From the NCBI RefSeq assembly GCF_026151205.1, contig NC_087079.1:15438445-15502444 (forward strand): a stretch of DNA of 64,000 bases, read 5' to 3'. The notes beneath the pieces are model-generated. The model made no database searches. It saw only the letters and a program-made list of their open reading frames with translations, and was not told where the DNA came from. Below are positions 8,356 to 45,990 of this stretch, one piece after another (the first letter of the stretch is position 1; every line of letters begins with the position of its first letter). The position numbers and the translations under genes were made by a program. Origin of the DNA: Bolinopsis microptera (lineage: Eukaryota; Ctenophora; Tentaculata; Lobata; Bolinopsidae).

Positions 8356-9417
8356 TCAACTGTGTGAACAGTGAACGAGCTTATGTCTAACTAAACTACC
8401 TCTTTGAGAACAAGTAAATGAGCATTCCAAGCATATGAAGGGTTTTTCACCTGAGTGAATTCGCTGATGTTTAACAAGATCACTTTTTTGAGAACAAGCA
8501 TAGGAGCATTCTGTGCACTTGAAGGGTTTCTCCCCTGTGTGAATTCTCTGATGTTTAACAAGATCACTTTTTTGAGAACAAGCATATGAGCATTCCTTGC
8601 ACTTGAAGGGTTTCTCCCCTGTGTGAATTCGCTGATGTTTAACAAGATCACTATTTTGAGAACAAGCATAGGAGCATTCCTTGCATTTGAAGGGTTTCTC
8701 CCCTGTGTGAATACGCTGATGTTGAACTAGATGAGCTTTTCGAACACAAGCATAGGAGCATTCCTTGCACTTGTTGAGTTTCTCCCCTATGTGAGTTCGC
8801 TGATGCACAACTAGATTACCTTTATAATAACTAGCAAATGAGCATTCCTTGCACTTGTAGGATTTCTCCCCTGTGTGAATTCTCTGATGCTTAACTAAAT
8901 TACCTTTTTCAGAACAAGCATATGAGCATTCCTTGCACTTATAGGGTCTCTCCCCTGTGTGAATTCGCCGATGTTTAACAAGATCACATTTTTCAAAATA
9001 AGCATATGAGCACTGTTCACACTTGAAAGGTTTTTCTTTAGAATGAACTCTCCGATGTTTCAAAAATTCAGATTTGTAGGAGCAACAAAAGGAACAAAGA
9101 TCACATTTAAAAGGTTTACTTTCATGTGGTGTATTTTTAGAACTGTTTTCTTTTTGTGATATCCCAGAAGAATTTGTTGGCTCATTAGAAGTTATATTTT
9201 TATCAGCAAAATGCTCAGAGTCATGGTGTTTTCGAATATGTTCAATAAAGTACTCATCGTTAAGGAAATGAGCTTTACATGTGGGACAAACAAAACCATG
9301 TGACTTTCCGTTGACTTCCTGTAGTTCAGTCTTTATCTCCTTCTTGATAACATGGTCCAGAATCTCGGTCTTCACTTCATCTTTTACAGTTTCTGATATT
9401 CCATCCTGATGTGACAT
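8356..9417 (-). CDS. C2H2 zinc-finger protein, copy 2 (353 aa, intact)
   Basis: Probable nuclear DNA-binding transcription regulator. The N-terminal 50 residues are charged and carry repeated psi-K-x-E sumoylation-like sites (VKDE, VKTE, IKKE, IKTE). An isolated finger follows (CPTCKAHFL...HIRKHH), then a serine/asparagine linker, then nine tandem C2H2 fingers with TGEKP linkers. The finger backbone is very uniform (CKECSYAC) while the helix positions that contact DNA vary (QKSDL, VRKAHL, EKGNL). The start is the ATG shared by all five paralogues. A 3' splice site-like CTGCCACAG lies just upstream, so a 5' non-coding exon is likely. No KRAB, BTB or other effector domain is seen. Confidence 0.85.
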   Translation of the reverse strand: MSHQDGISETVKDEVKTEILDHVIKKEIKTELQEVNGKSHGFVCPTCKAHFLNDEYFIEHIRKHHDSEHFADKNITSNEPTNSSGISQKENSSKNTPHESKPFKCDLCSFCCSYKSEFLKHRRVHSKEKPFKCEQCSYAYFEKCDLVKHRRIHTGERPYKCKECSYACSEKGNLVKHQRIHTGEKSYKCKECSFASYYKGNLVVHQRTHIGEKLNKCKECSYACVRKAHLVQHQRIHTGEKPFKCKECSYACSQNSDLVKHQRIHTGEKPFKCKECSYACSQKSDLVKHQRIHTGEKPFKCTECSYACSQKSDLVKHQRIHSGEKPFICLECSFTCSQRGSLVRHKLVHCSHS

Positions 9418-10223: not shown

Positions 10224-11294
10224 TTAAGGGTTCTCACATGTTATGTGAATACGCTGATGTTGGACAAGGCAATCTTTTCGAGAACAAGTATATGAGCATT
10301 CTGTGCACTTGTAAGACTTCTCCCCACTGTGAATTCTCTGATGTTTAATTAAATCACAATTTTTACAACAAGCATATGAGCATTCTTTGCACTTGTAGGG
10401 TTTATCCGCTGTGTGAATTCGCTGATGTTTAACTAGCTGACCTTTTTGAGCACAAGCATAGGAGCACTCCTTGCACTTGTAAGGCTTCTCCCCAGTGTGA
10501 ACTCGCTGATGTTTAATTAAATCACAATTTTGACGACAGGCATATGAGCATTCTTTGCACTTGTAGGGTTTCTCCCCTGTATGAATTCGCTGATGTTTAA
10601 CAAGATAACTTTTTTGAGAACAAATAAATGAGCATTTCTTGCACTTGTAGGGTTTCTCCCCTGTGTGAATTCGCTGATGTCTAATCAAATTACTTTTAAG
10701 AGAACAGGCAAATGAGCACTCCTTGCACATGTAAGGTCTCTCCCCTGTGTGAGTTCGCTGATGTTGAACAAGCTTCCATTTTGTAGCACAAGCATATGAG
10801 CATTCTGTGCACTTGTAAGGTTTCTCCCCTGTATGAGTTCTCTGATGCTTCACTATACTACCTTTTTTAGAACAAGCATATGAGCATTGTTCACATTTGA
10901 AAGATTTTTCTTTAGAATGAATTCTCTGATGTTTCAGAAATTGAGATTTCCAGGAGCAACCAAAGGAACAAAGATCACATTCAAAAGGTTTACTTCCATG
11001 ATGCCGTGTATTTTTAGAACTGTTTTCTTTTTCAGATATCCCAGAAGAACTCGTTGGCTCAATCGAAGTTATCTTTTCACCAGCAAAATGCTCATAGCCA
11101 TGGTGTTCTCGAATATGTTCAATAAAGTGCTCATCGTAAAGGAAATGAGCTTTACATGTGGGACAAAGAAAACCATGTGACTTCCCGTTCACTTCCTGTA
11201 GTTCAGTCTTTATCTCCTTCTTGATACCATGGTCCAGAATCTCAGTCTTCACTTCATCTTTTACAGTTTCTGATATTCCATCCTGATGTGACAT
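10224..11294 (-). CDS. C2H2 zinc-finger protein, copy 3 (356 aa, intact)
   Basis: Paralogue of copy 2 with the same architecture. It has the leader MSHQDGISETVKDEVKTE with several psi-K-x-E sites, one separate N-terminal finger (CPTCKAHFLYDEHF), a linker, and nine tandem fingers joined by TGEKP-type linkers. Differences concentrate in finger helices (TKWKL, RQNCDL, AQKGQL, CKNCDL). This suggests different DNA targets. The coding region is a single exon. The upstream minus-strand CTGTTACAGGAAGGATAAAC matches the other copies, supporting a shared upstream intron boundary. It has lost the usual 3' flank on its 3' side. Confidence 0.85.
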   Translation of the reverse strand: MSHQDGISETVKDEVKTEILDHGIKKEIKTELQEVNGKSHGFLCPTCKAHFLYDEHFIEHIREHHGYEHFAGEKITSIEPTSSSGISEKENSSKNTRHHGSKPFECDLCSFGCSWKSQFLKHQRIHSKEKSFKCEQCSYACSKKGSIVKHQRTHTGEKPYKCTECSYACATKWKLVQHQRTHTGERPYMCKECSFACSLKSNLIRHQRIHTGEKPYKCKKCSFICSQKSYLVKHQRIHTGEKPYKCKECSYACRQNCDLIKHQRVHTGEKPYKCKECSYACAQKGQLVKHQRIHTADKPYKCKECSYACCKNCDLIKHQRIHSGEKSYKCTECSYTCSRKDCLVQHQRIHITCENP

Positions 11295-11954: not shown

Positions 11955-12476
11955 TCACCTGTGTAAACAGTGGACGAGCTTATGTCTAACTAAAGTACCT
12001 CTTTGGGAACAAGCATATGAGCATTCTGTGCACTTGTAAGGTTTCTCCCCTGTGTGAATTCGCTGATGTTTAACTAGATCATTTTTTCTGACACAAGCAT
12101 ATGAGCAATCTTTGCATTTGAAGGGTTTGTCGCCTGTGTGAATTCGCTGATGTTCAACAAGATCATTTTTTTGATAACAAGAATATGAGCAATCTTTGCA
12201 TCTAAAGGGTTTTTCACCTGTGTGAATTCTCTGATGTTGAAATAGGCCACTTTTTCGAGAACAAGCATATGAGCAATCTTTGCATCTAAAGGGTTTTTCA
12301 CCTGTGTGAATTTTCTGATGTTGAAATAGGCCACTTTTTCGAGAACAAGCATATGAGCATTCTGTGCACTTGTAAGGTTTCTCCCCTGTATGAATTCGCT
12401 GATGTTTAACAAGGTCACTTTTTTGAGAACAAGCATATGAGCATTCTTTGCATTTATAGGGTTTCTCCCCTGTGTG
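11955..12476 (-). pseudogene. Zinc-finger copy 4, 3' part (separated by LINE)
   Basis: Six C2H2 fingers and the family C-terminus (GTLVRHKLVHCLHR). It has no start of its own, and the upstream reading runs into antisense LINE sequence. The other part of the gene is at 17506-18049. The break lies in the histidine/linker of a finger and is flanked by TGTG on each side (12473-12476, 17506-17509), the LINE target duplication. Together the parts would make a gene with the family's ten fingers. Each half alone is out of context. Confidence 0.85.
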
Positions 12477-13460
12477 CTTATTGACACAATTGTTCCTAAA
12501 ATACCTTCTCCAGTGAATGATAGGAATATCAAGATTAACTCGTGTCTCATTAGTAAGTATAGCTCTGGTGCTAACCACATTCCAATGCACAGAGATGATG
12601 AGCCTGTGATTGATCCCGAATCTCACATCCTTACGATCTCACTAGGAGCTGCCCGTACCATGTCCTTCTGCAATAATGATGACAGCCAATCAGAAGATCT
12701 CCCCCTTCAGGACAACAGCTTGTTAGTCACAACGAGATATGCGCAGGACTTTTGGAAACACGGGATCCTCCCAGACGAGAATGTCTCCACAGAGAGAGTG
12801 AGCCTGACCTTTAGACACATTTCTCCTCACTTCATCAATTCGACCATCATTCTGGGTGATTCAAACACCTCCAGGATGACATTTGGTGACTCAGTAGGTA
12901 CCTTTGGTCGTTGGGTCCCTGGGAAGCGTGTTTTGGTAGGTCACATGGAGGCTCTCCCTGATGCAATTGAGATTGGCCCTTACCGTAATATTGTCATCCA
13001 TACTGGAATCAACAGTATTAACTCCCGGTCTCATCCACGATCAGAAGCCTACCTCCTCCATGTCCTCGAATCCAAGTGCAGAGACATTACTGAAACCTAC
13101 CCCAAATCCAAAATCCACTTGTCAATGTTACTTCCAACTAGACTAAACTCTCTAAATAGAAAAGTTGAAAGCTTTAATCGGGGCATCCTCGATGTGTCTT
13201 ATCAGCAAAGAAACATTTTTATTATTGATAACTCTATTTTTGGTCGCCAGCTCTCTGATGAGTATGGCAGATGGGATATTGCTGCAAATGGCCCTCTTAC
13301 CTCAGATATTGTCCACCTTGGTAAAAGTGGTATCCGTAAATTTGCTGCGAATATTAAGGAATCTGTAGCTGGCAGAAGGAGTAGCCAGTCTAGAGCACGT
13401 TTTAACACCAGTCAGGGGAACTTCGGCGGAGCGGTAGAGGGTGGTAGGCGCCCACCATAA
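12477..13460 (+). CDS. LINE ORF1: AlkB-like dioxygenase fused to SGNH esterase
   Basis: Residue numbers count the GTG at 12474 as residue 1; that codon belongs to the target duplication, so the real N-terminus is missing. Residues about 20-116 form the core of an AlkB-like 2-oxoglutarate/Fe(II) dioxygenase. They contain CLISKYSSG, the iron ligands H39-x-D41 in MHRDDEP, HILTISLG, the distal iron ligand H96 in FWKHGILP, and the 2-oxoglutarate arginines R108 and R114 in ERVSLTFR. R-x5-R is the AlkB signature. AlkB enzymes remove methyl groups from DNA or RNA bases. Residues about 123-295 form an SGNH/GDSL esterase: ILGDSNTSR (Ser130), HTGINSIN (Gly178, Asn180), DIVHLG (Asp278, His281). The C-terminal 30 residues are basic and glycine-rich. 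Esterase domains are known in CR1 ORF1; the AlkB fusion I infer from motifs. Confidence 0.85.
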   Translation, partial: LIDTIVPKIPSPVNDRNIKINSCLISKYSSGANHIPMHRDDEPVIDPESHILTISLGAARTMSFCNNDDSQSEDLPLQDNSLLVTTRYAQDFWKHGILPDENVSTERVSLTFRHISPHFINSTIILGDSNTSRMTFGDSVGTFGRWVPGKRVLVGHMEALPDAIEIGPYRNIVIHTGINSINSRSHPRSEAYLLHVLESKCRDITETYPKSKIHLSMLLPTRLNSLNRKVESFNRGILDVSYQQRNIFIIDNSIFGRQLSDEYGRWDIAANGPLTSDIVHLGKSGIRKFAANIKESVAGRRSSQSRARFNTSQGNFGGAVEGGRRPP

Positions 13461-13462
13461 TT

Positions 13463-16400
13463 ATGATGATCAAACAACCACAAATTACTAAGAATGTTTG
13501 CAAGGGATGCAATAAATTTATCTCAACACACCACAAAATTTTGAACTGTAGCTCCTGTGGAACAGTTACTCACTCTAAATGTGCCAAAAATCTCTTCCAA
13601 TACAGCCACACCAATGATAGCTGGCAATGCTACATCTGCATCGCCAGCTTACCACAACGGTACTGCCCATTTGCTTCTGCACTTATACGTGACAAACATG
13701 ACCCAGTCCACCTTGATGAAATTGAAGATGTTTCTGAAATCAATGAAATCCATAAAAGCTGTAAAAATTATGATCATAAAAGCTTTAAGAACCTCATAAA
13801 GCTGTATCATAGAAATGGGCAGAACCTTACTGGTATTTTTAACAATATTGATGGAAATGCTGCAAATTTTGATACATTTGTCACAGAAATCTCACAGTAC
13901 AGTCATCCAGTCTCGTTTATTGGCTTGGCTGAGACAAATATTGATGCAAACCTCAAAGACCTGTATAGGATACCCGGTTATCTCTCTGAATACACCAATA
14001 AATTACGTGACAAATCTAAAGGTAGTGGAGTGGGAATTTACATCAATGAGTCACTTACTTACACCCGTATTGACAAACTATGTATGTGTAGCCCTAACCT
14101 TGAATCAGTGTTTGTCTCCATAACAAACGTTGGCAGGCCCCAAACAGTTGGCGTCCTATACAGACCACCTGGTGGATCTGACAAAGATGCCCTACACGAA
14201 TTTGAGAGCCTTCTTAATCAGGTTCCTGATAGGAACGTTATCCTGCTTGGAGATTTCAACTTTAATCTATTTAATAAAGGCTCTGCCAGCTTTGAAAACA
14301 TTTTATATGGAAATAACTTCATCCCACTTATATCACTGGCAACGCACCATAAACCAGGCTGTGTCCCATCGCTTATTGACAATATTCTGACAAACTCCAC
14401 TGACAATATTGTGTCAGCTGGACTACTGGATACCAGGGTTTCGCATCACTCTCCAATTTTCTGTATTCTCGAATGTAGCATACCTGAAGAACCAGAACTT
14501 GACCCTTGTAAACCAAAATACGACTACTGTGAATCTAATATGACCAAGTTCTTAGAAGATATTCAAACAAATTTTTGTGGGCAGGTGTGCTACAACGTAG
14601 AAAACTTTGAAGTTTTTGCAAATAAGATAAAACTTTTGATCGAAGAAAATTTTTTAATTGAATCTGAATCGTTCAAAAAGTCAAAAAGAAATATGATTGC
14701 AAACCCTTGGATCACACCAGGGATCATTGCATCAGTGAAAAAGAAAGAATATCTTTACAAGCAGTGGAAGAGTACAATTAAGGAACCCAACCCTCTTGGA
14801 GACTCTGATCTATACTTAACCTATAGTAAATTCCGTCGACAGTTAAAATACATTATCAGATCTGCCAAGAAATTGTACTATTGCAGAAAATTCTCAAAAG
14901 TCTCAGGTAATATGAAGCAAACATGGGCACTGATCAATGAACTGAGGGGAAAAACAAAAACTGGAATAAAGGCCTCGTTCAAAATAGATGGTAGTTTAGT
15001 AAAAGACAAGCGTGTCATATCGAATGGCTTTAACATGTTCTTCTCTTCCATTGCAGGTAAACTTAATGCGAAGCTCTGCTCCTCCAAACCGATAAGTCGT
15101 GACACAGCTTGCCAGAGGCCCCTTAATTATAAGAACTACTTTAACAAAAGAGTTACCAACAGTATGTTCTTAAACCCCTGTGATTCTGAGGAAATCGAAA
15201 AAATTGTTAAAACCTTCCAGGGTGACAAGGCTAGTGACATATCAATAGCTGTTCTTAAGAAATGTTGCACTACAATCTCTAAGCACCTAGCTGGTTTCCT
15301 AAACTCATTCATGAAGCTGGGTCTATTTCCAAATATTCTCAAAATAGGTAAGGTCACCCCCGTATTTAAGAAAGGAGACCCACAGCTGTTTGATAACTAC
15401 AGGCCTATATCCATTCTACCTATCTTTGGTAAGATATTTGAAAAAGTAATTTACTGCCGACTATATAGCTTCTTTACTTCACATATGGTCATATACGATA
15501 AACAGTTTGGATTCAGATCCAACCACTCAACGGCACATGCCATCAATTACTCCATTGACCACATTCTTAAAAACCTAGAAAGTAAGAATCATGTAATTGG
15601 CATATTCATTGACTTAAGCAAAGCGTTTGACACAATCGACCACAGAAAATTACTTGTCAAACTTGAACACTATGGCATAAGAGGGCCCTGTCTTGACCTA
15701 ATTGAAAGCTATTTGTGTAACCGACAGCAGTATGTTGATTTCCAAAATACACACTCTGATCACTGCAAAATTGAATATGGGGTACCACAGGGATCAGTTC
15801 TAGGCCCTCTCCTCTTCTTACTCTACATTAATGACATTACCAACTCTAGCAAACTTGGACACTTCATACTGTTTGCAGATGACACGAACATATTTGTTGC
15901 TGGAAAAACTGAACAAGAAGCCTATTTGAATGCTAATAAAGTACTTGAATCTGTAAATGACTATATGGAATCTAACTTGCTGCACATTAACCAAAGCAAA
16001 TCGGTCTACATGTTATTCAGACCTGGCCGGTACTCGTCCTGTGCACGTGCTCGTGAATATGGCTCTGAGAACTCACTCACGTTATCAGGCAACACGCTTA
16101 CACGAGTAGATAAAGTGAGATTCCTTGGTGTTATCATAGACCATGAACTATCCTGGGAACCCCAACTAGATAACATAAAAAGTAAACTAACTACAAGTAT
16201 AGCTATAATTAAACGTATTATGAAGTTTATTCCAGAAACAGAGTACCATAAGCTGTATGACTCCCTATTCAAGTCTCATATGAGCTACTGTATCAGTAGC
16301 TGGGGTGGTGTCACACCTTATAGACTATCTAAACTGTTCTCCATCCAAAAAAGATGTGTACGCCTTCTATTTGGAAGCAAACCAAGCTTTGACCGGGCAG

Positions 16401-16909
16401 AGTATTATGAAACATGTGCACGTGCAAGACCATACAGTGAACACATCGCAAAAAGGAGCTTTGCTTTGGAAAACACTAAGCCAATATTCAATACCGAGAA
16501 AATCATGTCAATCCACAACCTGTACACCCAACATATATCCACTGAACTGTTTAAAATCTTGAAACTGCATCAACCTATCTCTCTGACAAGTTTATTCCAA
16601 ACAAGTTCCAGAGCATGTAGCCAAACTATGCGGGTCCCCCGACACAAACTTGAAATTTCTAAACACAATTTTGTCTTCAAAGGTACGACTATATGGAACA
16701 GTTTGGTTGATAAAATATTCGACAAATGCACTCCTAATGAAAACAATGTCATGGTCCCTGGCTCTAGTAAATTTTCCGACCTTTCCTCCCCCATCTCAAT
16801 TATCAAGAGCCGTATCAAAAAGCTCTTACTTGAAACCCAGCAATTGACAACACCTGGGCGTGAAATTGAGTGCCTCCCCCTAAATAGCTGGGGCATTGAA
16901 CCAGCTTAG
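13463..16909 (+). CDS. LINE ORF2: PHD finger, APE endonuclease, reverse transcriptase (1148 aa)
   Basis: Replication protein of the LINE. Residues 13-59 are a PHD finger: C13/C16, C29/C32, H37/C40, C56/C59. An apurinic-like endonuclease follows (about 110-330) with GLAETNID, VGVLYRPPGG, LLGDFNFNLF, PSLIDNIL and SHHSPIF. A linker leads to the reverse transcriptase (about 600-870) with VTPVFKKGD, NYRPISILP, FGFRSNHST, FIDLSKAFDTIDH, GVPQGSVLGP and the catalytic FADDT (FADD at 804-807). The C-terminal region has the usual CR1/L2-type extension. The frame is intact. The ATG is two bases after the ORF1 stop, suggesting reinitiation after termination. Motifs place it in the CR1 group, and the PHD finger is also known from CR1 elements. 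Confidence 0.92.
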   Translation: MMIKQPQITKNVCKGCNKFISTHHKILNCSSCGTVTHSKCAKNLFQYSHTNDSWQCYICIASLPQRYCPFASALIRDKHDPVHLDEIEDVSEINEIHKSCKNYDHKSFKNLIKLYHRNGQNLTGIFNNIDGNAANFDTFVTEISQYSHPVSFIGLAETNIDANLKDLYRIPGYLSEYTNKLRDKSKGSGVGIYINESLTYTRIDKLCMCSPNLESVFVSITNVGRPQTVGVLYRPPGGSDKDALHEFESLLNQVPDRNVILLGDFNFNLFNKGSASFENILYGNNFIPLISLATHHKPGCVPSLIDNILTNSTDNIVSAGLLDTRVSHHSPIFCILECSIPEEPELDPCKPKYDYCESNMTKFLEDIQTNFCGQVCYNVENFEVFANKIKLLIEENFLIESESFKKSKRNMIANPWITPGIIASVKKKEYLYKQWKSTIKEPNPLGDSDLYLTYSKFRRQLKYIIRSAKKLYYCRKFSKVSGNMKQTWALINELRGKTKTGIKASFKIDGSLVKDKRVISNGFNMFFSSIAGKLNAKLCSSKPISRDTACQRPLNYKNYFNKRVTNSMFLNPCDSEEIEKIVKTFQGDKASDISIAVLKKCCTTISKHLAGFLNSFMKLGLFPNILKIGKVTPVFKKGDPQLFDNYRPISILPIFGKIFEKVIYCRLYSFFTSHMVIYDKQFGFRSNHSTAHAINYSIDHILKNLESKNHVIGIFIDLSKAFDTIDHRKLLVKLEHYGIRGPCLDLIESYLCNRQQYVDFQNTHSDHCKIEYGVPQGSVLGPLLFLLYINDITNSSKLGHFILFADDTNIFVAGKTEQEAYLNANKVLESVNDYMESNLLHINQSKSVYMLFRPGRYSSCARAREYGSENSLTLSGNTLTRVDKVRFLGVIIDHELSWEPQLDNIKSKLTTSIAIIKRIMKFIPETEYHKLYDSLFKSHMSYCISSWGGVTPYRLSKLFSIQKRCVRLLFGSKPSFDRAEYYETCARARPYSEHIAKRSFALENTKPIFNTEKIMSIHNLYTQHISTELFKILKLHQPISLTSLFQTSSRACSQTMRVPRHKLEISKHNFVFKGTTIWNSLVDKIFDKCTPNENNVMVPGSSKFSDLSSPISIIKSRIKKLLLETQQLTTPGREIECLPLNSWGIEPA

Positions 16910-17469
16910 TCAATCAGCATCCCATCCCTTGCATACAACTAATTACAAAAGCGCTAATTATACCTGTTTCAAAAGCATCCTGTCTGGAAGTTCCCTGACT
17001 GCCGTGTGAATCTTTGGATCTATTTTTGGATCTATTTTTATATTGATATGATTTTTATATACCTATATATTCCTCGCATAATTTCCATGTCCGCCTGAAC
17101 AAACCTGGCACCATCAAATCTTACTCTAGAAACCCCAGAACTCATCAAGCCTAGTCTGAATTCAAAACTAGTTGACCAGCTACGTACAGTTTCCTGGACA
17201 ACTGGAACCTTTTGGGCCATGCACAAGCCAATAGCATGTATGGTCCTGCAGTGGGGTCTCCTTGTCCTGGGATCTGTGTTTTGATCCGTCTTTTCTTAAA
17301 ATTTTCCATTTGTGTCACTTAGAATCACCTTTTAAAATGTTAATCGACACCACTGGTCCTAGTTAAATTTAGCCATGGCACGACTACTCGAACGTAACAG
17401 TTAAATAGGTGTGACATACTATTATATTCTTATAATTATATCATATGAATTGATTGCACTGCTAATAAA
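16910..17469 (+). other. 3' UTR of the CR1-like LINE
   Basis: About 560 non-coding bases after the ORF2 stop. There is a short duplication TGGATCTATTTTT near 17017-17039. Otherwise no feature is seen before the terminal 18-bp repeats. Confidence 0.75.
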
Positions 17470-17505
17470 TAAAATACTTTGTTTTACTAAAATACTTTGT
17501 TTTAC
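17470..17505 (+). repeat. Terminal 18-bp tandem repeat of the LINE
   Basis: Two exact copies of TAAAATACTTTGTTTTAC that end precisely at the TGTG target duplication. In CR1-group LINEs such 3' repeats form during target-primed reverse transcription. Confidence 0.9.
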
Positions 17506-18049
17506 TGTGAATTCGCTGATGTTTAACAAGGTCACTTTTTTGAGAACAAGCAAATGAACAATCCTTGCACTTGTAGGGCTTCTCTCCTGTGTGAATTCGC
17601 TGATGCCTCACTAGACTACCTTTTTCAGAACAAGCATATGAGCACTGTTCACATTTGAAAGGTTTTTCTTTAGAATGAACTCGCTCATGTTTCAGAAATT
17701 GAGATTTGTAGGAGCAACAAAAGGAACAAAGATCACATTTAAAAGGTTTACTAACATTCGGTGTATTTTTAGAACTGTTTTCTTTTTGTGATATCCCAGA
17801 AGAACTCGTTGGAACATTAGAAGTCATCTTTTCACCAGCAAAATTCTCATTGTCATGGTGTTCTCGAATATGTTCAATAAAGTACTCAACGTAAAGGAAA
17901 TGAGCTTTACATGTGGGACAAAGAAAACCATGTGTCATCCCGTTGACTTCCTGTATTTTAGTCTTTATCTCCTTCTTGATAACATGGTCCAGAATCTCGG
18001 TCTTCACTTCATCTTTTACATTTTGTGATATTTTATCCTGATCTGACAT
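17506..18049 (-). pseudogene. Zinc-finger copy 4, 5' part (separated by LINE)
   Basis: Starts at 18049 with the family leader (MSDQDKISQNVKDEVKTE), the psi-K-x-E sites and the separate N-terminal finger. Three array fingers follow, and the gene is cut at KHQRIH by the LINE. The reading then runs through the LINE's 3' terminal repeats and stops at about 17462, adding a short lysine/tyrosine tail. It could still yield a four-finger protein of about 195 residues. The remaining six fingers are at 11955-12476. Confidence 0.85.
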
Positions 18050-18710: not shown

Positions 18711-19618
18711 TCACCTGTGTAAACAGTGGACGAGCTTATGTCTAACTAAAGTACCTCTTTGGGAACAAGCATATGAGCATTCTGTGCACTTGTAAGGTTT
18801 CTCCCCTGTGTGAATTCGCTGATGTTTAACTAGATCATTTTTTCTGACACAAGCATATGAGCAATCTATGCATTTGAAGGGTTTGTTGCCTGTGTGAATT
18901 CGCTGATGTTGAACTAAGTGACATTTTTGAGTACAAGCATATGAACATTCCTTGCACTTGTAGAGTTTCTCCCCTGTGTGTTTTCGCTGATGTTCAACTA
19001 GTTGATCTTTTCGAGAACAAGCATATAAGCATTCTCTGCACATGTAGGATTTTTCCCCTGTGTGAATTCGCTGATGTTTAACTAGATCATATTTTCGAAA
19101 ACAAGCATATGAGCAATCCTTGCACTTGTAGTTGTAGGGCTTTTCCTCTTTGTGAGTTCGCTGATGCCTCACTAGATTACCTTTTTTAGAAGAAGTATAT
19201 GAGCACTGTTCACATTTAAAAAGTTTTCCTTTAGAATGAACTCTCTGATGTTTCATAAATTCATATTTGTAGGAAAAAGAAAAGGAACAAAGATCACATT
19301 TAAAAGGTTTACTTCCATGTTTTGTATTTTTAGTAGTACTGTTTTCTTTTTGTGATATCCCAGAATAGAAGAATTCGTTGGCTCATTGGAAGTTATCTTT
19401 TCGCCAGCAAAATGCTCATAGTCATGGTGTTCTCGAATATGTTCAACAAAGTGCTCATCGTAAAGGAAATGAGCTTTACATGTGGGACAAAGAAAACCAT
19501 GTGACTTCCCGTTGACTTCCTGTATTTCAGTCTTTATCTCCTTCTTGATAATATGGTCCAGAATCTCGGTCTTCACTTCAACTTTTACAGTTTCTGATCT
19601 TCTATCCTGACATGACAT
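18711..19618 (-). pseudogene. C2H2 zinc-finger gene, copy 5 (frameshifted)
   Basis: The start at 19618 gives the family leader and N-terminal finger. After a serine codon near 19370 the frame changes, because the sequence reads TTCTATTCTGGG where the other copies read TTCTGGG: a 5-base partial duplication. In the first frame translation ends at 19253. The finger array continues in another frame from about 19256 to 18711 with six clear fingers plus a weak one upstream. One linker (KEEKPYNYKCKDC) has two extra residues. It is either a pseudogene or a sequence error. The array itself is otherwise well kept. Confidence 0.8.
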
Positions 19619-22639: not shown

Positions 22640-24010
22640 TATGCACTTAACAGTAGAAACGTTGAAAAAATAGTAAATTAATTAATATCAAAAGCACGTT
22701 TAAAAAGAAACGTTTTCAGATACACTTTAAAAGATTCCAGTGACATGCAATTCTTAATTTCAAGAGGCAACTCATTCCATAATTTAGGGCCAACTTTCTG
22801 AAACGATCTTTCTCCATACTGTGAATATACTCTAGGTTCAGTCAAATAGATAAGATGATTATAATTGGCATATTTAAATATATCACTCAAATAATCTGGT
22901 CCCATACCATTAAGACATTTATAGACAAGAAGCAATAACTTATATTGAATTCTGTAACTAATAGGCAGCCAATGAAGATCTTTCAGAGTGTCTCCTAGAT
23001 GATCATATTTATATAGTCCTACTATAGCTTTAGCAGCTGCATTCTGAACGAGTTGGTGGATGAGGTTGTCACTAATCCCATAATAAAGAGCATTGCAGTA
23101 GTCCAATTTGCAGACAATGATGCTGTTAATTATAAGCTTGAGCTGAGCTTTACTAAAGAGATATTTTCTCCTTATTACATTCCTAAGGAGTCTGAAACAA
23201 TGCTTTTTGAGGGACATGATTTGAGGCTCAAACCCACATCCAGAAAGTTTTATATTTCCTCCCAGATGCGTTTTTTCTAAACTCTGTGGCCCCAGGGAAA
23301 TTTATTTCGAAATAGGGTGTTTTAGACGACATTTGGCATTAAAGAAATTTGTAGGACAGCAATAGACTGGGATTGAAAAGAATCAAGTACTCACGTAAAT
23401 TTTGTAACTTCACAACAGCAATCTGCATTCTCCAATCAGAATATTTCACTGTGTTCCAAAACTGACAGGATGTTCCTCTTTGATTTTTATACAATCGAAA
23501 TGTTTTCTTCAAAAATTTCTTCAATTAATTTGTCTTTATTCCTAAAAAATATTTTGAAATTTAGGAGTAACTTCTCAAAAATTTCCTCTTTTTCTCAAAA
23601 ATTTCCTCTATTTCCTCTTATTTCCTCCCAGGCTGCCTGGCAAGATGGCGTGTTTCTGGATGTGGGGGCTCAAAAGTAAGATGATGGTCAATTTGAACAC
23701 CAAAGTTCTTTGTTGTGCTGACAAATCTGATACAGGTATCATTTGATAGCTTAACTCCCCCTATACTGACCTGGTTTAGAACTTGAGGTGAGGCGATGAT
23801 AAGTATTTGTGTTTTTCCAGGATTAAGTTGAAGGCAATATTCAACCATCCAGCGCTGTATGGTCCTAGCGCAATTCACAATTTGGATGCCCAGAGGAAAA
23901 CAAATTTACCTGATCACAAGGTTTGAAAGTTTTATATACCTGGTGGTCATCTGCATATCCTTGCACATTGAATCCAGATTTCTCAGTGGTCCTATACAGA
24001 GATCTGATGT
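22640..24010 (-). mobile_element. L2-like LINE remnant, split by a MITE
   Basis: Minus-strand reverse transcriptase pieces. From 24010 down: VQGYADDHQVYKTF (catalytic YADD), then CARTIQRWM, LQLNPGKTQILI, FGVQIDHHLTFEP. After the MITE the frame resumes with MSLKKHCFRLLRNV, LDYCNALYYG, LVQNAAAKAI, LHWLPISYRIQYKLLLLVYK, ending at 22678. Removing the MITE and one target copy joins the frames exactly. These motifs fit the L2/CR1 group. The 5' part is missing and some reading is damaged near 23900. Confidence 0.85.
23233..23666. mobile_element. hAT-type MITE, 434 bp
   Basis: Perfect 14-bp terminal inverted repeats (CCCACATCCAGAAA and TTTCTGGATGTGGG) and a perfect 8-bp target duplication GGCTCAAA (23225-23232 and 23667-23674). 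It interrupts the L2-like reverse transcriptase frame. The eight-base duplication points to hAT mobilisation. No coding sequence is present. Confidence 0.92.
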
Positions 24011-42489: not shown

Positions 42490-45400
42490 ATAATCTCAGG
42501 GAATAGTGATCGTGAAGGCAGTGAAGCCAATAACCTCTCCTATTCCAATGACCATAGTGCGTGATGAAGAATCACATCCTTTTCGAGGTGCTACTATTAA
42601 GCATTGTAATCTGTCCTGGGTGACTCCAGTATAAACAGATGACGTGCAACAAAACACTATGGATCTAGACAGGCAAAGGTCGATAAAAAACCGGGTGCGA
42701 GATGCTGGCAACTTCTCCTCTCTAAAAGTTTGCTACTGAAACATTACACACAAATCAAGGACGGTGTGCTTCTACCTCTGCAAGGTCGGGTGAGACCAGG
42801 ATGACGGCAACTGGGCAAAGCCTCAGGGACCCCAGTGGCCTGATGAGAAGAGTGGTTGCTCGTCATAACAACAGAGTAATTAGTCAACAGATCGCTCATG
42901 TTGACACTGACTTCAGCAAGTCCAATCCTATCAACTACAGCAAACACTCAATGTACTTTGGAACCTGGAATGTTTTATCTTTAGTCAGCTCATCTTCACA
43001 GCTTTATCAACTCAGTCAGAACATTGATCACTACAGTCTTGATATTTTGGGTATTACTGAAACTCATATGCCAGGATCTGGAAGTACACTTTTGGACAAT
43101 GGTAGTCTACTTATTCATTCTGGTAGGGGAGATGGTATCAAAAGGCAAGGGGTTGGCCTATGTCTTTCCAAAAAGGTCAGGAACTCCCTGATCTCTTATG
43201 TACCTACATCAGAGCGGGTCTTAACAGCTAGGTTACACGGCAAACACCTCAACATATCTGTTGTTGTAGCCTACGCTCCGACTGACGGTGCTGATGACGG
43301 AGAGAAAGATCGTTTTTACAACGTTTTATCAGACACGTTTGGTGAACTGCCCCGACATGATCTGAAACTGCTACTGGGTGACTTCAATGGAAAAGTTACT
43401 TCAAACAGATATGGATTCGAGGGAGTTATTGGTGGACAATCTCTCCATAGTTCATCAAGCGACAATGGGACCAGGCTCATGGATTTCTGTGCAGCCAATC
43501 AACTTGTTATTGGTGGAACTCTGTTCCAGCATAGAGACATCCACAAGGGTACATGGCGGTCTCCTAACGGGTTAACTGTGAATCAAATAGATCATATTTG
43601 TATTAGTGGACGATTCCAACACTCGCTACTCGATGTTAAGGTATGTCGTGGGGCTGACATTGGTTCAGATCACTATCTTGTTCGTGGACGGCTGCAAATC
43701 AAACTGCAGTCGGTAGCTAAGATCACTGCTAAAAGGCACGATGTGCCTGCTATCGAACATTTGCGAAACTCGTCTAAGGTTCAAGAGTACAATGTGGCTC
43801 TTCAGAACCGTTTTGATTGTCTGGCTAATGAGGTCAACCTTGAGGACATGTGGGATAATTTCAAGCAGACAGTCACTGATGTCTCGATGGAAGTGCTTGG
43901 AAAGCGTCCCCGGAAGGTTAAAGAACAACACCTTTCGCAAACCTCTAAGAACTTGATAGAGCAACGGGGAATGTTCAAACGGAGGGATCCCACTTCAAAC
44001 GTCAATAGATCAGCCTACTCTAAACTTAATAAATTAGTTAAGAAAAGTTGTAAAATTGACGACAACAACTGGGCTACTAAAATAGCGACTGATCTAGAGG
44101 AGGCTTCTAAGAAAGGCCAGCAAAGGGAAGTTTGGGATAAGATAAAGAAGATTTCTGGGAAAAAGAAGAAGAAAGTGGGTATGTCAGTTAGGGATAAGGA
44201 TGGTCATTTTATTACAGACCCGGACAGTCAGAAGGAAAGGTGGAAGGAGCACTTTACTGAGCTCTTAAATCCTCCACTATCGGATGCCAATCTTGATGAC
44301 CTCGATGGTGTGCCCTCACAACCGAGTTTTGACTACCTTTCTTGTTCTGATGGACCTCCTTCTAGAGATGAGATTAGTTATGCTCTAAAGAAACTGAAGA
44401 ACTGCAAAAGTGCAGGGGTTGATGAGATAACTAATGAACAACTTAAGTATGGTGGAAGTGCTCTTGTTGGCCAACTAGAGCTACTGTTTAAAAAGGTATG
44501 GGAGGAAGAGGTGATCCCTGAGGATTGGCTTAAAGGTGTTATAGTGGTTATCGGAAAGAAGGGAGACACCTCATACTGCTGCAATAATAGGGGTATAACT
44601 CTTAGGGCAACGTCTTCTAAGGTTCTTCAAATGGTTCTTCTTAAGAGGCTGGATGTTGGAATGGAGTGTCTTCTTAGGGAAAATCAGTGTGGGTTCAGAC
44701 GGAACCGCTCATGTATTGATCAGATTTATTCCATCCGCACCATTATTCACAACTGCATTGAGTTTAACATTCCACTTTATGTTAATTTCATTGATTTTAA
44801 GGCAGCGTTTGATTCCATCAGAAGAGAGTTTATTTGGTCAAGCATGAGACACTATGGACTTCCTGAGAAATATGTTAGAATCTTTCAGGCATTCTTCAAC
44901 GGAACCATGAGTGCTGTCAGGGTTAATGGTGAAATGTCTGATTGGTTCTCTGTTAATTCGGGCACTGGACAGGGTGATATCCAGGGCCCCCCTGTATTTA
45001 ATTTTTGTCTGAACTTTGGAATCTTTTTGGCCGAGGTTCACAAGGCAATCAGTCATGGTGCTGTACTGCAAAAGGAACTAAAGGGTGCAGATGAAAAAGT
45101 TATCATGGACAGTGACTACGCTGATGATCTGGCAGTGATGGACAATACTGAAGAAGGGCTGCAAGAGTCCACTGATCTTATAGCTTATTACACCTCTTAT
45201 GCTGGGTTGAAGATCAACGCTAAAAAGACACAATGCATGGCGATCAGCAAGTGTGCGTCCCAGCGACCTTACACCGAAAGAGACAGTATAAAGCTAACAG
45301 TGGAGGGAGAACCTGTTGAACAGGTCAGCAACTTTGTTTATCTTGGTGCCAACATCAGTGGGGATGGTACCATTGACCGAGATCTTGACATCAGGATCCA

Positions 45401-45990
45401 GCGTGCTAATGGTGCATTCCATCAGCTTTGGAAGATATGGAACAGTCGAACTATAAGAACGCCCACCAAGATCCGTATCTACAAGGCTGCTGTTATTACT
45501 ATTCTGTTATATGGAGCCGAAGTGTGGAACACAACAAAGAAGCAGATGAAACGGTTTGAGGTCTTCCATCTGACCTCCCTGAGAAGAATCTTGAAGATAA
45601 AGTGGTTCTTCCATGTCTCCAATGAAGAAGTTCTCAGGCGTGCTGGAATTAAGTCTATCGAAACTTTCATCGGTGCGGCTAGACTAAGGTGGTACGGACA
45701 TGTTGTCAGAATGCCAGAGACGCGGTTTCCCAATTTCTTACTGGATTGGAAACCAAACTATGGAAAGAGACTGAGAGGACGACCCCGCAAAGGCTGGATG
45801 GCCTGTGTACTCGAGGATGCGGCTGAATTTACAGGTGTCGATAACATCAGCAGAGATGCAGTAAAACAGTTGGCTCTAAAGCGAGTGGAATGGAGGAACA
45901 TGCTACGCCGTAGAAGAGATGTGTGTGATGCAGGCCACTCCAACGACTAGGAGGAGACCTCTTCATGTAGCATGTATGTATTTTCAGAAA
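42490..45990 (+). mobile_element. Near full-length RTE-like LINE
   Basis: About 300 bases of 5' leader, one 1049-codon ORF (42801-45950) and a short 3' tail starting AGGAGGAGACCTCTTC. Exact ends are uncertain. One ORF with an N-terminal endonuclease fits RTE-type elements. The 3' fragments at 1820-2345 and 2690-2870/5677-6000 belong to the same family. Confidence 0.75.
42801..45950 (+). CDS. RTE-like LINE endonuclease-reverse transcriptase (1049 aa, intact)
   Basis: An APE-type endonuclease (about residues 50-305) carries FGTWNVLSLV, LGITETHMPG, VVVAYAPTDG, LLLGDFNGKV, QIDHICISGRF and GSDHYLVRG. The reverse transcriptase (about 530-800) carries LKNCKSAGVDEI, PEDWLKGVIVVIGKKGD, NNRGITLRATSSK, QCGFRRNRSC, FIDFKAAFDSI, GTGQGDIQGPP and the catalytic DYADDLAV (YADD at 773-776). 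The C-terminus has WYGHVVRMPETR and GRPRKGWMACVLEDAAEF. The complete open frame and start ATG suggest recent activity. The clade is judged RTE-like from single-ORF layout and C-terminal style; not certain. Confidence 0.88.
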   Translation: MTATGQSLRDPSGLMRRVVARHNNRVISQQIAHVDTDFSKSNPINYSKHSMYFGTWNVLSLVSSSSQLYQLSQNIDHYSLDILGITETHMPGSGSTLLDNGSLLIHSGRGDGIKRQGVGLCLSKKVRNSLISYVPTSERVLTARLHGKHLNISVVVAYAPTDGADDGEKDRFYNVLSDTFGELPRHDLKLLLGDFNGKVTSNRYGFEGVIGGQSLHSSSSDNGTRLMDFCAANQLVIGGTLFQHRDIHKGTWRSPNGLTVNQIDHICISGRFQHSLLDVKVCRGADIGSDHYLVRGRLQIKLQSVAKITAKRHDVPAIEHLRNSSKVQEYNVALQNRFDCLANEVNLEDMWDNFKQTVTDVSMEVLGKRPRKVKEQHLSQTSKNLIEQRGMFKRRDPTSNVNRSAYSKLNKLVKKSCKIDDNNWATKIATDLEEASKKGQQREVWDKIKKISGKKKKKVGMSVRDKDGHFITDPDSQKERWKEHFTELLNPPLSDANLDDLDGVPSQPSFDYLSCSDGPPSRDEISYALKKLKNCKSAGVDEITNEQLKYGGSALVGQLELLFKKVWEEEVIPEDWLKGVIVVIGKKGDTSYCCNNRGITLRATSSKVLQMVLLKRLDVGMECLLRENQCGFRRNRSCIDQIYSIRTIIHNCIEFNIPLYVNFIDFKAAFDSIRREFIWSSMRHYGLPEKYVRIFQAFFNGTMSAVRVNGEMSDWFSVNSGTGQGDIQGPPVFNFCLNFGIFLAEVHKAISHGAVLQKELKGADEKVIMDSDYADDLAVMDNTEEGLQESTDLIAYYTSYAGLKINAKKTQCMAISKCASQRPYTERDSIKLTVEGEPVEQVSNFVYLGANISGDGTIDRDLDIRIQRANGAFHQLWKIWNSRTIRTPTKIRIYKAAVITILLYGAEVWNTTKKQMKRFEVFHLTSLRRILKIKWFFHVSNEEVLRRAGIKSIETFIGAARLRWYGHVVRMPETRFPNFLLDWKPNYGKRLRGRPRKGWMACVLEDAAEFTGVDNISRDAVKQLALKRVEWRNMLRRRRDVCDAGHSND

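Follow-up and report, generated by a model that had tools for sequence, protein, structure and literature searches.

The stretch of Bolinopsis microptera DNA analyzed here, called the window in the following (64,000 nucleotides; contig NC_087079.1, positions 15,438,445 to 15,502,444 of the forward strand), contains a copy of a long interspersed nuclear element (LINE). The first open reading frame (ORF1) of this element encodes an AlkB-type dioxygenase, dependent on Fe(II) and 2-oxoglutarate (2OG), and an SGNH-type esterase. In the family to which the copy belongs, a conserved ALKBH2/3-like dioxygenase with complete catalytic residues is fused to the esterase directly before the endonuclease-reverse transcriptase (EN-RT) ORF, and it is under purifying selection. 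This suggests that the element clears methyl marks from its own RNA or DNA.

The copy has the features of a LINE, namely an EN-RT ORF2, a short target-site duplication and a 5′ truncation (Table 1). Its insertion site lies within a minus-strand gene for a C2H2 zinc-finger protein, and excision of positions 12477-17509, the element plus one TGTG, rejoins an unbroken ORF of 353 residues. Because this host gene lies directly upstream, position 12477 is the 5′-truncation point inside the zinc-finger gene rather than a translation start. Comparison with full-length copies shows what has been lost: about a third of the AlkB domain, together with the coiled coil and the PHD-like finger. A complete enzyme in this copy, as initially described, is thus ruled out by the truncation, and the AlkB profile PF13532 is covered at positions 91-194 of 194 only. 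The AlkB motifs reported in a first-pass annotation (HRD, a distal His and two Arg six residues apart) are present, but their numbering was one too high. The esterase motifs GDSN, GIN and DIVH were read correctly, as was the PHD-EN-RT ORF beginning 2 bp after the ORF1 stop. Since 873 nt of ORF1 are identical (0 differences) to each of three other genomic copies (L004, L006, L011), the window copy is young; its ORF1 remnant P0001 shows 100% protein identity to other matches in the genome. ORF2 matched reverse transcriptases of the LINE type (R2, LINE-1) in the PDB, which shows no more than that type; CR1/L2 is a candidate clade. A Cys pattern like that of its N-terminal finger recurs at the ORF2 start of other subfamilies.

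Table 1. Features of the LINE copy, in window coordinates; fractions refer to the two-domain relatives described in the text.
Feature	Position	Strand	Remarks
5′-truncated LINE copy	12477..17505	+	~5.03 kb; 18-bp 3′ tail unit present twice at its end
Left target-site duplication TGTG	12473..12476	.	3-4 bp
Right target-site duplication TGTG	17506..17509	.	its first T may be part of the 3′ tail
3′ tail	17471..17505	+	AAAATACTTTGTTTTACT x2; last T at 17506
ORF1 remnant P0001	12477..13460 (open frame 12474/12477-13460)	+	327 amino acids (aa) + stop, without native start codon
AlkB (2OG-Fe(II) dioxygenase) domain, C-terminal part	12477..12827	+	PF13532 and phmmer match to ALKBH2
AlkB iron ligands H and D (HRD, residues 38-40)	12588..12596	+	H kept in 78/79, D in 79/79 relatives
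AlkB distal iron ligand H95	12759..12761	+	kept in 78/79 relatives
AlkB 2OG motif RVSLTFR (R107, R113)	12795..12815	+	each Arg kept in 78/79 relatives
SGNH hydrolase (esterase) domain	12834..13370	+	
SGNH nucleophile Ser in GDSN (127)	12861..12863	+	kept in 79/79 relatives
SGNH block III Asn in GIN (177)	13011..13013	+	kept in 79/79 relatives
SGNH Asp and His in DIVH (277)	13305..13316	+	D kept in 79/79, H in 78/79 relatives
C-terminal tail, basic, probably disordered	13371..13457	+	sequence; tail pLDDT low in two relatives
ORF2, 1148 aa: zinc finger, endonuclease, reverse transcriptase	13463..16909	+	Pfam; R2 and LINE-1 reverse transcriptase structures
Cys-rich zinc finger (PHD/C1-like), ORF2 N-terminus	13499..13639	+	weak Pfam matches under cut-off
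AP-type endonuclease domain	13844..14428	+	Pfam Exo_endo_phos 2.8e-7
Reverse transcriptase domain	15374..16138	+	Pfam RVT_1 6.9e-39; R2/LINE-1 structure matches

For the AlkB part of P0001, PF13532 gave an E-value of 6.9e-18 and 66 bits (cut-off 31.2), and the best PDB match with phmmer was ALKBH2 (E 6.7e-10). The same profile scored above its curated cut-off in 10/10 genome representatives, and both the HxD...H iron site and the R-x5-R 2OG site are found in the family. A complete dioxygenase fold, absent from the truncated window copy, is present in the predicted model of the relative P0003. Membership of the second domain in the SGNH/GDSL group is remote, as fold and residues show. No SGNH Pfam match was found in P0001; Lipase_GDSL_2 reached E ≤0.01 in 19 of 58 aligned family members and matched five of ten genome representatives, all five under the curated cut-off (best 30.3 vs 32.9 bits). 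Among solved structures, the family profile matches SGNH proteins, one of them the esterase of a zebrafish LINE (4c1b, 6e-4), and the Ser, Gly, Asn and His (plus Asp) of blocks I, II, III and V as well as the fold are present. The domains proposed at first were thus recovered by profile directly for AlkB and by way of the family for the esterase. By the definition given in PMC4120745, an esterase domain in ORF1 makes this an esterase (type IV) ORF1.

A search of the genome (264.65 Mb) gave at least 123 matches including the window copy, some copies being represented by two matches; scoring was limited to the best 122 of 891 candidates, which makes this count a lower bound biased to intact copies. 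Within the matched stretch, 117 of the 123 have no stop. For closer analysis, 20 full stretches and 13 ORF1-only stretches were taken, chosen for long open frames. Altogether, 41 loci minus three repeats (L003, L005, L008) gave 38 copies, which clustered at 80% identity into 11 subfamilies. The AlkB-SGNH fusion and all nine catalytic residues are present in 38/38 copies, across all 11 subfamilies. In full copies, ORF1 comprises 685-686 aa with the layout coiled coil-AlkB-SGNH-basic tail, preceded by a PHD-like finger in part of the subfamilies, including that of the window copy. A PHD-type Cys/His pattern was seen in 18 of 32 long ORF1s, and in P0099 and its kin the Pfam PHD scores stayed under the cut-off. 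Each of the 20 full stretches has ORF2 homology behind ORF1, and 15 of them retain two long open ORFs. Of the other five, L012, L022, L026 and L029 have a broken or incomplete ORF2, and ORF1 of L014 is short if read from the first ATG. The element is an autonomous-looking LINE family. The spacing between ORF1 and ORF2 was +2, +5, −4 or −7 in the 14 copies read closely: in L015-L018, L023 and L029 the sequence ATGA holds both the ORF1 stop and the ORF2 start, in L027 the overlap amounts to 7 bp, and other subfamilies have a gap of 2 or 5 bp. These overlaps and short spacings suggest coupled translation by termination and re-initiation.

A protein database search yielded 97 relatives and a second search 40 rows, many of them ORF1s of ~610-750 aa; the only organism-named matches among the ORF1-like relatives were from Mnemiopsis leidyi (P0123 and P0134). 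Among the 134 proteins considered (P0001-P0134, P0098 left out), 79 have both domains nearly complete (>150 residues in each), and the others are mostly incomplete in one domain. All nine catalytic residues are kept in 76 of these 79 proteins, and the five of the AlkB domain rank within the top 23 of 179 columns by conservation. Pairwise identity averages 46% for AlkB (minimum 21%) and 51% for SGNH (minimum 26%), and the identities of the two domains correlate with r = 0.885 (best of 1000 permutations, 0.195). The idea that the fusion is neither accidental nor a one-off event, and that it and its catalytic residues are conserved across copies, has therefore held. That the fusion reflects a chance resemblance, a misassembly or one capture confined to this locus has a negligible probability, and nothing was found in its favor. 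Against it stand at least 123 genome matches, 97 proteins in one search, and the agreement of profile and fold; protein relatives, residue conservation and genome copies refute it. No relatives were confirmed in viral and prokaryote contigs. A reading as a defense system was discarded: the single PADLOC match, for P0099 (CARF_2OG, 1.3e-10), is limited to the dioxygenase part.

Selection was estimated as the ratio of nonsynonymous to synonymous substitution (dN/dS) by simple NG86 counting on 40 overlapping pairs from three groups of copies. The median was 0.131 (range 0.063-0.200) for AlkB, the part for which the first-pass annotation had proposed this measure, and 0.100 (0.035-0.129) for SGNH; the PHD-coiled coil region gave 0.182 (38 pairs). 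From the low dN/dS together with the kept residues it follows that the AlkB domain is under purifying selection nearly as strong as that on the esterase. The fold might instead be kept mainly as a nucleic-acid-binding module, with catalysis secondary, and the esterase ORF1 proteins (ORF1ps) in RepBase are indeed described as lacking an RNA recognition motif or other structural RNA-binding domain (Schneider et al., PMC3905857). Binding alone, however, would not keep both iron ligands and both 2OG arginines at 78-79/79 and 38/38, which makes this very improbable. As a separate observation, synonymous divergence between L023 and each of L035, L036 and L039 is 1.4-1.5 in AlkB and 0.3-0.4 in SGNH within the same pair, a pattern such as an exchange of ORF1 segments among subfamilies would leave.

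Concerning the kind of AlkB, a domain-only family profile matched ALKBH2 at 1e-23, ALKBH3 at 6e-17, ALKBH8 at 3e-10, AlkB at 2e-6 and ALKBH5 at 0.05, so that ALKBH2 and ALKBH3 are the closest solved relatives and ALKBH5 is not. Phylogenetic trees were calculated from 27 chosen LINE domains and 28 chosen standalone matches, with ALKBH3, ALKBH5 and viral domains left out. With IQ-TREE (57 domains), the LINE domains form one clade of 29 tips, including two ORF1-like fragments (bootstrap 85), which adjoins five ALKBH2-type proteins (joint bootstrap 99). The simplest reading of these sequences would be one capture of an ALKBH2/3-like domain. The profile scores bear on N6-methyladenosine (m6A), which had initially been named as a possible target. 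An AlkB that counters silencing by taking m6A or some other regulatory mark off the RNA of the element or the host has a precedent in an orchid Gypsy element, for which such a role was proposed and whose AlkB demethylates m6A RNA in vitro (PMC9289625). We regard this as distinctly unlikely here, given an ALKBH5 match at 0.05 only and residues after HxD of the ALKBH2 kind in 78/79 relatives; the m6A-eraser class is disfavored by the family profile scores.

Residues at the active site were compared using ALKBH2 numbering (Y122, R110, N159, N250), the letters being read from sequence. The stacking Tyr at the Y122 position is kept in 27/27 LINE domains. The ALKBH2 finger segment, which invades duplex DNA, comprises 23 residues in ALKBH2 and its counterpart 9-15 in the LINE domains. 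With the stacking Tyr kept and the finger segment shortened, single-stranded substrates and a chemistry of the N1-methyladenosine (m1A)/3-methylcytidine (m3C) type are therefore favored, and an m1A/m3C-type demethylase appears likelier than an m6A eraser.

ORF1 proteins coat LINE RNA. In the explanation that we prefer, the AlkB of the LINE ORF1p demethylates the RNA template or the cDNA for target-primed reverse transcription; we give this a probability of roughly 0.55. The coiled coil and the basic tail would let ORF1p multimerize on the element RNA. Using Fe(II) and 2OG, its AlkB domain would remove Watson-Crick-face methyl groups (m1A, m3C) from the RNA template or from new single-stranded cDNA, which would let target-primed reverse transcription reach the 5′ end. 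The esterase may have a part in ribonucleoprotein assembly or in contact with membranes and lipids, a role suggested earlier for its counterpart in the zebrafish LINE (PMC3905857). Both the path from fold to substrate and that from substrate to retrotransposition are inferred. Reverse transcriptases in common use are reported to be hindered by m1A and m3C, and an engineered Bombyx R2 enzyme, a LINE reverse transcriptase, to be impeded by m1A, with a modest gain from AlkB treatment for intact tRNAs and a clear one for 3′ halves (PMC12140624). An economical reading would be that the LINE brings its own demethylase so that its template or cDNA stays copyable. The narrower version, an animal LINE lineage with its own epitranscriptomic eraser, in which ORF1p frees the RNA of RT-blocking m1A/m3C while it is packaged or undergoes target-primed reverse transcription, is plausible at somewhat less than even odds.

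Several points weigh against this explanation. The window copy itself is unable to make a whole AlkB domain. All 41 loci were found via AlkB-bearing open frames, so decayed copies are under-represented, and none of the dN/dS pairs come from the subfamily of the window copy, the members of which differ too little. Three of the 79 two-domain proteins (P0037, P0060, P0100) are without one or more of the nine catalytic residues, and Arg directly follows the iron-binding Asp in 2/38 genome copies. Four further relatives (P0092, P0094, P0095, P0096) have Gly at the position of the first 2OG arginine and no esterase; they share an end point directly after AlkB, three of the four carry a PHD-like finger, and they may represent an esterase-less derivative or a domesticated gene. 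FastTree also recovers the LINE clade (0.82) but places as its sister the ALKBH2 group plus 19 other standalone AlkBs. The short finger segment is not unique, a standalone relative (P0191) having 14 residues. The N159 position is Asn in only 6/27 LINE domains, and the N250 position is Ser in 27/27. As ALKBH2 acts mainly in DNA repair, DNA could be the substrate here as well, and Arg is kept in 24/27 at the R110 position, which has been probed in double-stranded DNA complexes. The AlkB might thus demethylate cDNA or target-site DNA (m1A, m3C or N6-methyladenine, 6mA), either repairing single-stranded intermediates or lifting a silencing mark from a new insertion, and the PHD-type Cys/His pattern could bring ORF1p to chromatin. 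Although ALKBH2 and ALKBH3 are the closest solved relatives, the duplex-invading finger segment is shortened and the worm 6mA demethylase NMAD-1 matches the family profile at ~4e-6 only; we consider such a DNA-side role rather unlikely. The conflict between the trees, the tie between ALKBH2 and ALKBH3 and the weak esterase Pfam score touch the exact substrate, not the fusion.

Elsewhere in the window, the split zinc-finger gene belongs to a minus-strand C2H2 cluster (8356-9417, 10224-11294, 11955-18049 and 18711-19256), three genes of which have an N-terminal region in common. A second LINE-type EN-RT ORF (42801-45950, 1049 aa) shows ~24% identity to ORF2 over 353 residues of the reverse transcriptase region, and a short minus-strand ORF (22678-23217) by eye resembles the C-terminal end of another LINE ORF2.

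As far as the literature searched shows, this would be the first LINE known to have a nucleic-acid demethylase of its own, built stably into ORF1 across many subfamilies in a single genome. No description of AlkB in a LINE was found in the titles and abstract beginnings searched, with Repbase and subscription papers outside the search, so this novelty is provisional. With this family, a limit set on LINE retrotransposition by base methylation of its RNA or cDNA becomes directly testable, and a natural demethylase that has evolved alongside the reverse transcriptase of a LINE becomes available; the family also gives a possible answer to how an esterase-type ORF1p touches nucleic acid. If the element does carry its own eraser, base methylation by the host or alkylation damage of retrotransposon RNA would be a real selective barrier to LINE retrotransposition.

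Among known systems, CR1/L2 LINEs with an esterase (type IV) ORF1, such as zebrafish ZfL2-1, likewise have an SGNH esterase in ORF1, a coiled coil and an EN-RT ORF2. The classification of ORF1s in Jockey-superfamily LINEs sorts them into five types; AlkB does not occur in its main text, and none is described for type IV (PMC4120745), whereas in every copy read here AlkB precedes the esterase. ALKBH2 and ALKBH3 share with the LINE domain the fold, the iron and 2OG residues and the Y122 position; the LINE domain differs by its short finger segment, by its fusion with a coiled coil and SGNH, and by being transposon-encoded. The AlkB domains of plant RNA viruses (Alpha-/Betaflexiviridae, Closteroviridae) are also carried by a parasite and have been postulated to repair its own RNA (as told in PMC9289625). 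Such domains are among the viral models matched in Foldseek, but by the match descriptions they lie inside replication polyproteins and not in a LINE ORF1 with an esterase. The nearest published case is the orchid (Phalaenopsis) Ty3/Gypsy element with an ALKBH5-like ORF, likewise a retrotransposon-borne AlkB-type dioxygenase retained in its family (PMC9289625). That element is a long terminal repeat element of a plant, and its m6A eraser, of the ALKBH5/9 kind, is a separate ORF for which no mention of an esterase was found, whereas the domain of the window family is ALKBH2/3-like and fused within ORF1 of an animal LINE.
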